This document shows, one piece after another, positions 5,981 through 30,802 of a DNA stretch of 63,924 nt. The stretch covers positions 1 to 63,924 of the forward strand of contig NZ_JALTON010000021.1 in the NCBI RefSeq assembly GCF_027000115.1, in the 5' to 3' direction. The stretch's first letter is position 1, and each line of letters starts with the position of its first letter. The translations under genes and the position numbers were made by a program. The stretch is from Thiohalobacter sp. (GTDB lineage Bacteria > Pseudomonadota > Gammaproteobacteria > Thiohalobacterales > Thiohalobacteraceae). A model generated the notes under the pieces. It saw only the letters and a program-made list of their open reading frames with translations. It was not told the DNA's origin and did not search any database.

Positions 5981-7741
5981 ATGCGGGGAGTGGCGAACAG
6001 CATCCGGCGGATGCGCGGGCTGGCCGGCGTGTCGCTGCTGGGCCTCCTGTTCCTTGCGGCGCCGTTGCAGGCGGCGATCCGGGTCAGTGTCGAGGGGCTC
6101 GATGGCGAGCTGCTCGCCAATGTGGAGGCCCTGCTGAGCCTCAAGGCGCCGGATCTCGACCCCGGGCTGTCGGAGGTGCGGCTGCGCCAGCTGTTCGTGC
6201 GCGGGCGGCGCGAGATCGCCCGCGCGCTGGAACCCTTCGGCTACTATCGGCCGGTGATCGATGCCGACATGGCGCGTGACGGCAACGACTGGCGCATCCG
6301 CTACCGTGTCGATCCCGGTGAGCCGGTGCGAATCGAACGACTGCGGATTCAGATTCTCGGCGAAGGCGCAGAGGACCCGAAGCTCGGGGCGCCGGTCGAC
6401 AAGCCCGGGCTGGCGGAAGGCGACGTTGCCGACCACCGCCGCTACGAGGCGCTGAAGCGCCGGCTGATGAACCGCGCGCTGGACCTCGGCTACCTGGAGG
6501 CGCGCTGGCAGACCAGCGAGCTGCGGGTGGACGCCGCCGCCGGCCGTGCCGAGGTGGTGCTGGTGCTCGAGACGGGGCCGCGCTTCCTGTTCGGTCCGGT
6601 GCGCTTTCCCGACGACGTGCCGCTGGACCGCGCCATGCTGCAGCGCTATGTGCCCTTCCGCGCCGGCGAGCCCTTCTCCAACCGCGGCCTGCTGGCCCTG
6701 ACCCGTGCCCTCGAGGACAGCGACTACTTTGCCTCGGTCGAGGTGCATGCCGAGCCCGAACGGGCGATCAACCGGGCGGTGCCGGTGCGGGTCGAGCTGG
6801 TGCCGCGCAAGCGCCACAAGTACACCGCCGGCATCGGCTTCGGCACCGACACCGGCGCGCGTCTGCGGCTGGGCTGGGCGCATCGCCGCATCAATCGCGC
6901 CGGCCATCGCATGGAGGCGGGGCTGCGCCTGTCGCAGATCGGCCACGAGGCCAGCCTGGCCTACAGCATTCCGCTCAAGAACCCGCGCACCGACCGGGCG
7001 GTGATCGACGCCGCCACCCGGCGCAAGGAGACGGACACCAGCACCAGCCGCATTCGCCGCCTGGGCCTCAACCGAACCCGCGTGCTCGGTGACTGGTTGC
7101 AGACCCTGGCCGTTGAGTACCACGACGAGGACTTCGAGGTCGGCGGCGAGGCCGACAGCAGCCGGCTGTTGCTGCCGCAGGCCGGCTGGTCGCGGGTGCG
7201 CGCCGCCAAACGCATCGACCCGAGGCGGGGTGAGCGCGTCGACCTGTCCGTTCGCGGCAGTTGGGCCAGCCTGCTGTCCGACGTGAGCTTCCTGCAGTTG
7301 CGCGCCAGCGGCAAGTGGGTGCGCAGTCTCGGCGAACGCACGCGCCTGCTGACCCGCCTCGATGCCGGCACCACCTGGGCCAATGACTTCGCGGCCCTGC
7401 CCGCCTCGCTGCGGTTCTTCGCCGGAGGCGACCAGAGCGTGCGCGGCTTCGGCCTGAGCACCCTGGGTCCGACCGACAGCGACGGCCAGGTGGTGGGTGG
7501 CCGCCACCTGCTGGTCGGCAGTCTGGAGCTGGAACGGCAGGTGCGGGGACCCTGGCGGGCCGCGTTGTTCGTCGATGGCGGCAACGCCTTCGACGGCCTG
7601 CGGGACGACCTTGCCCTCGGCGCCGGCGTCGGTCTGCGCTGGGTCTCGCCGGTGGGTCCGCTGCGGGTGGACCTGGCCGTGGCCGTCTCCGAGCCCGAGC
7701 GGCCGCTGCGGCTGCACATCACCCTGGGGCCCGACCTGTGA
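5981..7741 (+). CDS. tamA: Outer-membrane assembly factor TamA (Omp85 family)
   Basis: A 586-residue protein with an N-terminal signal ([17 protein letters not shown]), a periplasmic POTRA region over about the first 270 residues and a C-terminal 16-strand-type barrel. The Omp85 signature around [18 protein letters not shown] lies near residue 480, with the conserved RGF. With TamB it forms the translocation and assembly module that helps insert autotransporters and other outer-membrane proteins and moves phospholipid. The stop overlaps the tamB GTG start by 4 nt, so the two are translationally coupled. An internal ATG at 6011 is an alternative start. Confidence 0.95.
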
Positions 7742-19298: not shown

Positions 19299-19328
19299 TT
19301 TACAAGTTCCGTCCTGGCCACGGACAAT
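19299..19328 (+). promoter_or_regulatory. Candidate promoter of the split tRNA-Gly
   Basis: TTTACA (19299-19304) and GACAAT (19323-19328) are separated by 18 nt, and the tRNA begins 12 nt after the -10 box. It would drive both the tRNA and the intron it contains. Confidence 0.5.
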
Positions 19329-20080
19329 AGGCCGACATCGCGGGTGTAGTTCAATGGTAGAACCTCAGCTTCCCAAGCGTGCGACACGAGTCGCGAGGTC
19401 GTCGGCCTCTCACCACGCTGCATCTTCGGGTGCTTGAAGAGTGAGGAACCGACAAGCCTCCTCCAATGGTCATTTCCGACCACGGAGGAAAGCGGCGAAG
19501 GCCGTGTAAGCAATTGTCCAGCGGTGAAATACCGTAGTGGACCGGGTGTCCAGCCACCCGTAGCCTAGGGGCAGTGCAAGACTGGTAACGGTCTTGTGCG
19601 AAGCGCCCTGACAACGTAGCCACCCCGCGGGGTACGCCACGCCCCGCGAGGGGCGCGGTGTGATCCGGGAGACGCACCCGGTGAGGAGCCAGGCTGGGTT
19701 GAAGGGTCAGCGTAAGCGAACCACTGGTAAACGTCGTAAAGCTGAATGGGCCAACTGCGTCTGGGCCCAGCCCAAAAGGGATGTGGTCGGGTTGTCCTGT
19801 TGCTTGGTCAGGGCACGCTGGCGACAAGACCACCGGCGAAAAGGTGGGGCCCTCCCAACCCGTGTTGCTTACACGGAACGTGGTAAGCCCGATGAGGTGT
19901 CCCGGATGGGACTAGGAAGCCCGCAAGGGTGACCGATGCCTCAGCGGGTAGAGGATCGCGGAAAAAGCGAAAGCCCGGCTGTAGCGGCCGGGATAGGGGA
20001 TGAAACGATCGCCCCAACCCGAAAGGGTGCTGACTTCCGCGTGGTGGCCTGTCGTTAGACAGGCTTGTGGCAACCCGACC

Positions 20081-20109
20081 CTGAAGGGGGGATGTTCCCC
20101 TTCAGGGGG
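20081..20109 (+). other. Domain IV hairpin upstream of the cargo tRNA
   Basis: CCCTGAAGGGG and TCCCCTTCAGGG form a strong stem just before the tRNA insertion. The following CCTGAGT (20113-20119) is complementary to ACTCAGG (20206-20212) on the far side of the tRNA, so the tRNA is presented on top of a stem. Confidence 0.6.
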
Positions 20110-20131
20110 CGTCCTGAGTCTTCAGGGTCAG

Positions 20132-20205
20132 GCGGGTGTAGCTCAATGGTAGAGCTCCAGGTTCCCAACCTGGCGACGTGGGTTCGATTCCCATCACCCG
20201 CTCCA
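20132..20205 (+). tRNA. Intact tRNA-Gly(CCC) carried inside the group II intron
   Basis: A complete 74-nt cloverleaf with encoded CCA: acceptor GCGGGTG/CACCCGC, D arm GCTCAATGGTAGAGC, anticodon stem CCAGG/CCTGG around TTCCCAA, T arm GTGGG TTCGATT CCCAT. Its acceptor and T arms are identical to the interrupted tRNA-Gly, but the D stem, the anticodon stem and a variable-loop base differ in a way that keeps pairing. It lies in intron domain IV, 15 nt upstream of the maturase ATG. A functional tRNA here could supply GGG decoding without splicing. Confidence 0.93.
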
Positions 20206-20220
20206 ACTCAGGAGGCTGAT

Positions 20221-21864
20221 ATGGACGCACACGCTGTGAGGGGCGATGTCGCCTCCAACGTCTGGACTGGCTGGCACGATATTTCGTGGCGGACAGTCCA
20301 CAAGACGGTGGGGAGGCTGCAGGCCCGAATAGCGAAGGCAGCCCGAGAAGGTGACTGGCGGACCGTACGGCGGTTGCAGAAACTGCTTACTCGGTCCACC
20401 AGTGCGAAAGCGCTCGCCGTAAGGCGGGTCACCGAGAATCAGGGCCGCAGGACACCTGGCGTTGACGGGGAAACCTGGTCTACGCCCGGTGACAAGTGGA
20501 GGGCGATATTTGACTTGGATACAAGACATTATCGTCCACGCCCGCTTCGGCGGGTCCACATACCGAAAGCCAACGGAGGGAAACGGCCGCTAGGGATTCC
20601 GACAATGCGGGACCGGGCCATGCAGGCACTGTATCTGCTCGCGCTCGATCCAGTAGCGGAATCCACGGCAGATCCCAACTCTTATGGTTTTCGGAGAGGC
20701 CGGTCCACGGTGGACGCCATCGTCCAGTGTCAGAATGCGCTGGGGCGAAGGCACTCTCCACAGTGGGTGTTGGATGCAGACATCAAAGGCTGCTTCGACA
20801 ACATCAGCCACAGCTGGTTGGAACGGCACATTCCGATTGACCGGGTCGTTCTCCGACGGTGGCTCAAGGCCGGCTATATGGAACAGGGACGCCTGTTCCC
20901 GACAGAGGGAGGTACGCCGCAAGGCGGCATAATCTCACCGACGTTGGCGAACATGACCTTGGACGGCATGGAGCGGCTGCTGAAAAGCCGCTTCAAACGC
21001 CGGCACAAGATCAACTTTATCCGGTACGCGGATGATTTTGTAGTTACAGCTTCCACCAGGGAAGCGCTGGAACACGAAGTCGTTCCGTTGCTGGAAGCCT
21101 TCTTGGGCGAACGCGGTCTGCAGCTCTCGAAAGAGAAGACTCGCGTGACCCATATAACGGAAGGCTTCGACTTTCTGGGATGGAATGTCAGGCGGTTCAA
21201 CAAGATTCTCCTGATAAAGCCGTCTCGGAAAAACCGGAAGGCGTTCTATCAAAAGGTCGCGGATACATTGAGACGAATGCGGACCGCCAGTCAGGATGAT
21301 GTGATACGGACCCTGAACCCGATTATCCGGGGATGGGGCGAATATCACAGAAGCCAGATGGCAAAACGCACATTCGCCAAAATGGATCACAAGATCTTTC
21401 AGGCCCTGTGGCGTTGGGCCAGACGTCGGCACCCCAACAAGGGGCAACGCTGGATCCGGAAGAAATATTTCCGGGCCAGTGATAACCGTAGTTGGGTGTT
21501 TGCGTCTGACAACACGACCCTTGCACGGCTGTCGGATCTTTCGATACGACGGCATGTGAAGGTCAAAGCCGAGGCCAACCCGTACGACCCGGCGTGGGAG
21601 AGCTACTTCGAGCATGTCCTCATGAAGAAGATGGCCTCCACCCTGATGGGACGCCGAAAACTGTACTGGTTGTGGGCGCGTCAAAACGGGGTTTGTTCGT
21701 GGTGTGGTGAGAAAATCGTCAAGAAGACGGGATGGCACGTCCATCATCGGACCTGGCGGACTCACGGTGGCACCGACAAGGCGGACAACCTCGCAATGAT
21801 GCATCCTAACTGCCATCGGCAGTTGCACAGCCTGGCAGGAAGGGCTGCCGGTTCTTTCTGTTGA
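20221..21864 (+). CDS. ltrA: Group II intron reverse transcriptase/maturase with HNH endonuclease
   Basis: A 547-residue multifunctional intron protein. The RT fingers/palm run from about residue 40 to 320 with the YADD catalytic motif (FIRYADDFVV) near residue 270 and TPQGGIISP before it. The maturase domain X follows (LNPIIRGWGEYHRSQMAKRTF). A C-terminal HNH nuclease has CSWCGEK, HVHHRTWRTHGG and an NLAMMHPNCHRQLH end. ATG 20221 has AGGAGG at the right distance and is preferred over an upstream in-frame start whose translation would run through the internal tRNA. Domain order and HNH resemble the chloroplast-like class. It promotes splicing and retrohoming of its intron. Confidence 0.95.
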   Translation: MDAHAVRGDVASNVWTGWHDISWRTVHKTVGRLQARIAKAAREGDWRTVRRLQKLLTRSTSAKALAVRRVTENQGRRTPGVDGETWSTPGDKWRAIFDLDTRHYRPRPLRRVHIPKANGGKRPLGIPTMRDRAMQALYLLALDPVAESTADPNSYGFRRGRSTVDAIVQCQNALGRRHSPQWVLDADIKGCFDNISHSWLERHIPIDRVVLRRWLKAGYMEQGRLFPTEGGTPQGGIISPTLANMTLDGMERLLKSRFKRRHKINFIRYADDFVVTASTREALEHEVVPLLEAFLGERGLQLSKEKTRVTHITEGFDFLGWNVRRFNKILLIKPSRKNRKAFYQKVADTLRRMRTASQDDVIRTLNPIIRGWGEYHRSQMAKRTFAKMDHKIFQALWRWARRRHPNKGQRWIRKKYFRASDNRSWVFASDNTTLARLSDLSIRRHVKVKAEANPYDPAWESYFEHVLMKKMASTLMGRRKLYWLWARQNGVCSWCGEKIVKKTGWHVHHRTWRTHGGTDKADNLAMMHPNCHRQLHSLAGRAAGSFC

Positions 21865-22136
21865 CGGAAAGAACTTCGAGGCTGCTTGAGCCCGGTGCGG
21901 GGAAACTCGCACGCCGGGTTCTTAGGGGAGGGAGGGGCCGCAAGGCCTCCTCCCTTACCCGACTGATGACGTGGGTTCGATTCCCATCACCCGCTCCACT
22001 TCTGTCCGCTTTACCCTTCAAGCGTTTTCGCGCGCGGCCGCTGTAACGGGGACACATGGTCGGTCGCGAGTCCGCCATCGTCCGCAGCCCTTGACGCAAT
22101 TTCGGGTTGGTGAAACAGACGGTTGAAGGGTCTGCC

Positions 22137-29456: not shown

Positions 29457-29532
29457 GGCCAGGTAGCTCAGTTGGTAGAGCAGGGGACTGAAAATCCCCG
29501 TGTCGGCAGTTCGATTCTGTCCCTGGCCACCA
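29457..29532 (+). tRNA. tRNA-Phe(GAA)
   Basis: 76 nt with encoded CCA. The acceptor GGCCAGG pairs CCTGGCC, the anticodon stem GGGGA/TCCCC holds loop CTGAAAA (anticodon GAA), and the T loop is TTCGATT. No neighbouring tRNA genes. Confidence 0.97.

Positions 29533-30726: not shown

Positions 30727-30802
<76 letters not shown>

Follow-up and report, generated by a model that had tools for sequence, protein, structure and literature searches.

The window analysed here, a whole stretch of 63,924 nucleotides (nt) on contig NZ_JALTON010000021.1 of a Thiohalobacter sp. assembly (GCF_027000115.1), holds a gene for the glycine transfer RNA with anticodon CCC, tRNA-Gly(CCC), broken into parts of 39 and 35 nt by a group II intron of 2,585 nt, and domain IV of this intron houses a second, complete tRNA-Gly(CCC) together with the gene of the intron-encoded reverse transcriptase (RT)/maturase (Table 1). 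The intron termini, GTGCGAC...CCCGAC, agree with the GUGYG...AY boundary rule, domains V and VI are present, and the joined exons give a 74-nt tRNA-Gly(CCC) with a complete cloverleaf. The insertion point lies between tRNA nt 40 and 41, on the 3′ strand of the anticodon stem, so that neither half is a tRNA unless spliced. The 5′ boundary is fixed independently of the tRNA halves, since the exon-binding sites of the intron (EBS1 and EBS2) form 12 of 12 pairs with the intron-binding sites (IBS1 and IBS2), which lie within the final 13 nt of the 5′ exon, at tRNA nt 28-40. A preliminary description of the locus had placed the two halves 2.6 kb apart at exact group II boundaries, with a second complete tRNA-Gly(CCC) between the ribozyme 5′ half and the maturase open reading frame (ORF); the boundaries hold to the base (Rfam, joined cloverleaf, EBS/IBS pairing), and both ARAGORN and Rfam recognise the second tRNA.

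The carried tRNA departs from the interrupted (resident) one in its anticodon stem, which reads CCAGG/CCTGG versus TCAGC/GCTGA. The maturase ORF is intact, with RT, maturase and HNH domains all within the domain IV gene. Its frame stays open across the carried tRNA (20178-20220 in the window; likewise at the related loci L033, L121, L194 and L195), so that gene finders may place the protein start inside the tRNA (MGSIPITRS...), and this N-terminus could act as a database hook for further carriers. Two other kinds of element were considered and rejected: a bacterial group I tRNA intron, since cmscan of the window matches group II families and no group I family, and an integrative element restoring its tRNA by attachment-site (att) homology, since only the RT/maturase lies between the exons and the tRNA copy is internal, not terminal.

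Table 1. Features of the split tRNA-Gly(CCC) locus, in window coordinates.
Feature	Position	Strand	Basis
5′ exon, first 39 nt of interrupted tRNA-Gly(CCC), to canonical nt 40	19340..19378	+	joined exons 74/74 identical to the intron-free tRNA-Gly(CCC) of G001, orthologous locus
Group II intron, 2585 nt, GTGCGAC...CCCGAC	19379..21963	+	Rfam matches, EBS/IBS pairing
Ribozyme domain I segment, RF02012 group-II-D1D4-7	19542..19689	+	Rfam 107.2 bits
EBS2 AAGCTG	19739..19744	+	6/6 pairs with exon CAGCTT
EBS1 GCTTGG	19802..19807	+	pairs with IBS1 CCAAGC (tRNA nt 35-40)
Carried intact tRNA-Gly(CCC), domain IV, CCA encoded	20132..20205	+	ARAGORN; Rfam 73 bits
Intron-encoded reverse transcriptase/maturase with HNH endonuclease, 547 aa	20221..21864	+	TIGR04416 379 bits (cut-off 300); RVT_1, RVT_N, GIIM, HNH
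Domains V and VI, RF00029; candidate branch-point A at 21957	21886..21963	+	Rfam 59.4 bits
3′ exon, last 35 nt of interrupted tRNA-Gly(CCC), CCA included	21964..21998	+	cloverleaf of joined exons
Promoter-like site 5′ of split tRNA, TTTACA-18-GACAAT	19299..19328	+	weak consensus match; 1 found vs 0.6 expected; no evidence of function

The second intron and the tRNA-Gly genes of the same genome

The genome of the window, a 2.65-Mb draft in 63 contigs with an estimated completeness of 100%, yields two domain V matches. The other one belongs to an intron that interrupts tRNA-Gly(UCC), in a tRNA-Tyr/Gly/Thr/tuf cluster (contig C49), and that carries a complete tRNA-Gly(UCC). The maturases of the two introns are 77% identical, their ORFs 71% at the DNA level and their carried tRNAs 94.6% (70/74). 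Of the four differences between the carried tRNAs, three (nt 32, nt 34 and one base of the variable loop) are the same changes that separate the two interrupted genes; as these are scattered among bases unlike those of the residents, the carried tRNA takes on the identity of the gene it breaks at individual bases rather than through a single copied stretch.

Infernal and ARAGORN, with a two-mismatch pattern search in agreement, find no further tRNA-Gly(CCC) or tRNA-Gly(UCC) in this genome, which for CCC answers a question that the preliminary description had raised, and the remaining tRNA-Gly genes have the anticodon GCC; the only intact CCC and UCC genes are the carried copies. Under established decoding rules a GCC tRNA reads neither GGA nor GGG, and these codons therefore depend on the two elements, with the carried tRNA or the spliced one, or the two together, as the reader. 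Directly upstream of the second intron, beside an assembly N run, RtT RNA (RF00391) repeats follow tRNA-Tyr (L033:890-1023). Elsewhere in the window (30727-30802), near a tRNA-Phe at 29457, lies a tRNA-Ala with anticodon CGC, which is seemingly uncommon among bacteria.

Relatives in other genomes and the empty site

The same anatomy recurs in a metagenome-assembled genome of Methyloversatilis universalis (locus L037, genome G772), in G319 (a one-contig genome of 3.96 Mb), in G660 (on a 3.55-Mb contig) and in G777 and G778, with a remnant in G779, the last three being from the family of the Methyloversatilis genome; the wider search for tRNA-bearing group II introns foreseen in the preliminary description has thus given a positive answer. 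G772, G777, G778 and G779 share one locus, with upstream flanks 79-88% identical, which implies vertical inheritance of the element there. In G001, of the same family as the window genome, homologues of an AMP-ligase and of GspE enclose an intact tRNA-Gly(CCC), just as the window neighbours do but with no intron, and this tRNA is identical to the joined exons of the window at 74 of 74 positions, so that the intron must have entered a native gene.

The draft state of the window genome, in 63 contigs, could raise the suspicion of an assembly artefact, or of tandem tRNAs, one of which contains an intron. Against both, the order exon, ribozyme 5′ half, tRNA, ORF, domains V/VI and exon is found twice in that genome and again in G319, G660 and G777 on megabase contigs, and the orthologous site in G001 is free of the intron, which leaves either idea scarcely conceivable; the preliminary description had itself named assembly error as a danger and judged the order incompatible with tandem tRNAs, and the recurrence settles both points in its favour and likewise rules out chance.

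Carriers occur in distant families, and the window genome has two divergent copies, which is at most an indirect hint of splicing and retrohoming activity. In a tree of 22 maturases those of the tRNA carriers make up one clade (support 96/89), and the 16 non-carrier relatives, which lie at other sites, have no tRNA. The simplest reading of this distribution is a single capture followed by long persistence. No tRNA was found inside the intron in the three regions examined of plasmid and phage relatives of the maturase, the one tRNA in a phage relative region being located after the maturase gene, and a pattern scan of viral contigs found no carriers. The interrupted gene of G319 has the stem typical of its own family, being identical (74/74) to a free gene in G756 (L140), whereas the stem of its carried tRNA differs, which is consistent with arrival from elsewhere together with the cargo.

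The carried and interrupted anticodons agree in all eight elements with a recognisable split gene (seven CCC/CCC, one UCC/UCC), and no intact CCC tRNA other than the carried copy was found in the window genome or in G319, G660, G772, G777, G778 and G779. As a separate observation, L173 (G009:C1:1420000-1426000) and L166 (G762:C56) hold truncated 5′ fragments of tRNA-Gly(CCC), with the break in the anticodon loop or the T arm, which look like what integrative elements leave at their attachment sites; several kinds of element seem to target tRNA-Gly(CCC).

Target recognition, decay and conservation

Across the eight elements the interrupted gene forms 12 of 12 pairs with EBS1 and EBS2 (11 of 12 in G660), and the carried tRNA forms 8-11 of 12, fewer than the interrupted gene in every case. 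EBS2 varies with its target, being AAGGCTG facing CAGCCTT in the UCC copy on C49 (7/7 pairs) and AAGCTT facing AAGCTT in G319. Four of the carried tRNAs (window copy, UCC copy, G660 and G778) have a G-C in place of C-G at stem pair 31-39, a change that preserves the stem and removes a base on which both EBS1 and EBS2 depend, and that suggests a recoding of the carried tRNA for evasion of its own intron. In a further locus (L241, G773:C270, intron start at 2041 on the reversed locus; here G773b), EBS2 is AAGCCC and complementary to a GGGCTT in the 5′ flank. This GGGCTT is similar to the stem of G773's other carried tRNA, in a flank not recognisable as tRNA, and the intron may represent a second-generation insertion directed at a tRNA of the carried type.

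Four decayed introns (G779, G773a, G773b and G809) retain the carried tRNA as an intact survivor. The one in G779 has lost ORF, domains V/VI and 3′ exon, with a junction within a 28-nt sequence common to the carried tRNA and the 3′ exon, so that splicing cannot restore the resident gene, and its carried tRNA is the sole CCC tRNA found. In G809 the intron is broken and the 5′ exon degenerate, and in G773a the exon and the ribozyme start are gone. The maturases of G777 (a stop and a frameshift) and L037 (cut by an insertion) are also damaged, again with the carried tRNA intact. The L037 insertion site holds a short inverted-repeat element (L037:4930-5030) with a similar copy downstream at 6595-6690, as for a miniature inverted-repeat transposable element (MITE).

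These broken elements bear on the idea that the carried tRNA serves the intron, with RNase P and 3′ processing cutting domain IV just before the ribosome-binding site of the maturase, either to free a translatable mRNA or to regulate splicing, and with the glycine identity being incidental. The position would suit such a role, as in every intact carrier the tRNA directly precedes the maturase start, between the domain IV hairpin and the ATG, where the relatives have the ribosome-binding site directly. The tRNA is nonetheless retained in G777, G779, G773 and G809 despite the loss or breakage of their maturase, the 16 other relatives in the maturase tree manage without one, and the UCC copy follows the interrupted isoacceptor at the anticodon and position 32, which a processing signal would not need. 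Nor was any carried tRNA seen with a mutated anticodon or mutated charging determinants but intact processing signals, and we regard this role as highly improbable.

The carried tRNAs show strong compensatory change. Among 10 distinct ones, 99.5% of the stem cells are paired and seven pairs have changed on both sides. Their covariation is 0.277; shuffles give 0.093 (0/500), and sliding gives no more than 0.056. G777 and G778 have 97.2% identity in the intron 5′ half but only 66/74 in the carried tRNAs, the differences being located in the anticodon arm and the variable loop; such fast, structure-keeping change would fit either escape from targeting or swapping between introns.

A less remote alternative, though one we consider unlikely, is that the intron splices well and the resident tRNA works, the carried tRNA being a passenger that was captured a single time (e.g., through template switching by the RT) and that recombination with the resident keeps intact. 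Ribozyme, maturase and EBS/IBS pairing do appear intact in the window, the interrupted genes are conserved, and in most elements the carried and resident tRNAs have the same T arm and acceptor. Recombination with the resident would, however, erase the paired anticodon-stem changes that separate the two, to which G660 adds differences in the acceptor and T stem, and in G779, G773a and G809 the carried tRNA is intact beside a resident that can no longer be spliced.

A free tRNA-Gly with a CCC anticodon in G780 (L239:2973-3046) occupies the position in the Tyr-Gly-Thr cluster that holds tRNA-Gly(UCC) in the window genome, and is identical (74/74) to the carried tRNA of the broken intron G773a. 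That all free tRNAs identical to carried ones are scars of intron loss is unsupported, as no intron remnants occur in G002, G003, G035 and G780; the free tRNA of G002 and G003 lies downstream of the same AMP-ligase homologue, and there intron loss may have taken place.

Home-and-rescue as an interpretation, and its significance

The reading that we favour, and hold to be probable, is that of a mobile group II intron homing into the anticodon arm of tRNA-Gly with a functional tRNA of the same anticodon in its domain IV, such that the host would survive even if splicing is poor or lost. The intron ribonucleoprotein would recognise tRNA nt 28-40 through the observed EBS2 and EBS1 pairing and reverse-splice between nt 40 and 41, and its protein, which has RT and HNH nuclease domains, could then complete the insertion. 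The carried tRNA, which shares its strand with the host tRNA, would be transcribed along with it from the host tRNA promoter, released by normal tRNA processing, and supply the decoding of GGG (in the UCC copy also of GGA), replacing the spliced resident tRNA or working beside it. Through its mismatches with EBS1 and EBS2 the carried copy would be a poorer target, and after decay of the intron it could stay as the tRNA of the host, as G779, G773 and G809 show at the sequence level. Decoding by the carried tRNA is suggested because the anticodons match, no other such tRNA is found, its changes are compensatory and it survives in dead introns. On the same evidence the insertion-and-rescue element proposed in the preliminary description is the best supported idea, with the reservation that ‘replacing’ may mean ‘backing up’ in some hosts.

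Several observations weigh against this interpretation. The interrupted tRNA is conserved at 73-74 of 74 positions among G772, G777 and G778 despite 16-20% divergence of the upstream flanks, and is probably still spliced in some hosts; together with the perfect EBS/IBS pairing, this is why the carried copy may be a backup there. tRNA-Gly(UCC) is essential, whilst tRNA-Gly(CCC) is often dispensable given a UCC tRNA, so that rescue would be strictly needed only in the UCC copy. In G319 and G777 the carried tRNA has only one mismatch to the EBS, that of G319 being a single pair away from a perfect target. The 31-39 flip is not exclusive to carried tRNAs, as it also occurs in free-standing tRNA-Gly(CCC) genes of G002, G003, G007, G776, G035 and G082, and selection for evasion is for this reason no more than suggested. 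Since three of the four decayed loci came to light through searches for intact tRNAs, intact carried copies are favoured among them; a search based on intron junctions, free of that bias, gave an intact carried tRNA in four of four. Put most cautiously, the favoured reading is that a single locus can provide two tRNAs, of which the carried one gives the host tolerance of failed splicing.

A bolder version, which we put forward only tentatively, is that of a natural, RNA-guided home-and-rescue retroelement resembling a gene drive, in which EBS2 would track the target while the carried tRNA drifts, and in which tRNA processing would cut domain IV, followed by splicing in trans, so that one transcript could give both tRNAs. 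If tRNA processing does cut domain IV, splicing must precede the cut or occur in trans, which raises the question of whether such processing is compatible with splicing. The break in natural trans-splicing introns mostly falls in domain IV, and as of 2015 no such intron was known from bacteria (PMC4424553); a trans-splicing intron at this locus would be the first natural one of group II in bacteria.

The preliminary description knew of no described group II intron with a tRNA isoacceptor that replaces the gene it disrupts, and no group II intron carrying a tRNA was found in the open-access literature searched, subscription papers lying mostly outside its scope. In boundaries, domains V/VI, EBS/IBS pairing, an intron-encoded protein with RT, maturase and HNH, and an ORF in domain IV, the window element is like other bacterial mobile group II introns (RF00029, RF02012, TIGR04416; anatomy in PMC4424553). 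Most of these lie outside housekeeping genes (PMC4424553), whereas this one sits in a housekeeping tRNA gene and brings along a tRNA with the matching anticodon. In chloroplasts, too, an essential tRNA can be split by a group II intron that bears a maturase (e.g., trnK with matK), but as described there such introns hold no replacement tRNA and their splicing is obligatory (PMC4424553). Bacterial group I tRNA introns share the self-splicing intron in a tRNA and the preference for conserved structural RNA genes, but belong to another ribozyme class and carry no tRNA in the account given in PMC3984707. The nearest precedent in logic is, by analogy, that of the fungal mitochondrial mobile ORFs with a replacement C-terminus (Glomus atp6, atp9, cox2 and nad3, PMC3630166; Allomyces atp6, Paquin 1994, cited in PMC3630166), where a homing element in an essential gene supplies a divergent replacement of the displaced part; these are homing-endonuclease ORFs and no retroelements, and by in-frame fusion they stand in for a portion of a protein gene instead of an entire tRNA. 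Gene drives engineered on home-and-rescue or toxin-antidote lines (PMC7968924, PMC7046741) also join insertion into an essential target with a recoded, less targetable rescue copy, but they are synthetic and based on CRISPR, whereas the window element is natural, guided by EBS RNA and aimed at a tRNA.

If the favoured reading is correct, the element would be a natural counterpart of such engineered drives, and would show how a selfish retroelement can settle in an essential and highly conserved gene by bringing its own replacement along, a cargo that would explain its access to a target found in nearly all bacteria. It would also open a route to host dependence on the cargo of an element, with the carried tRNA as the last of its kind.
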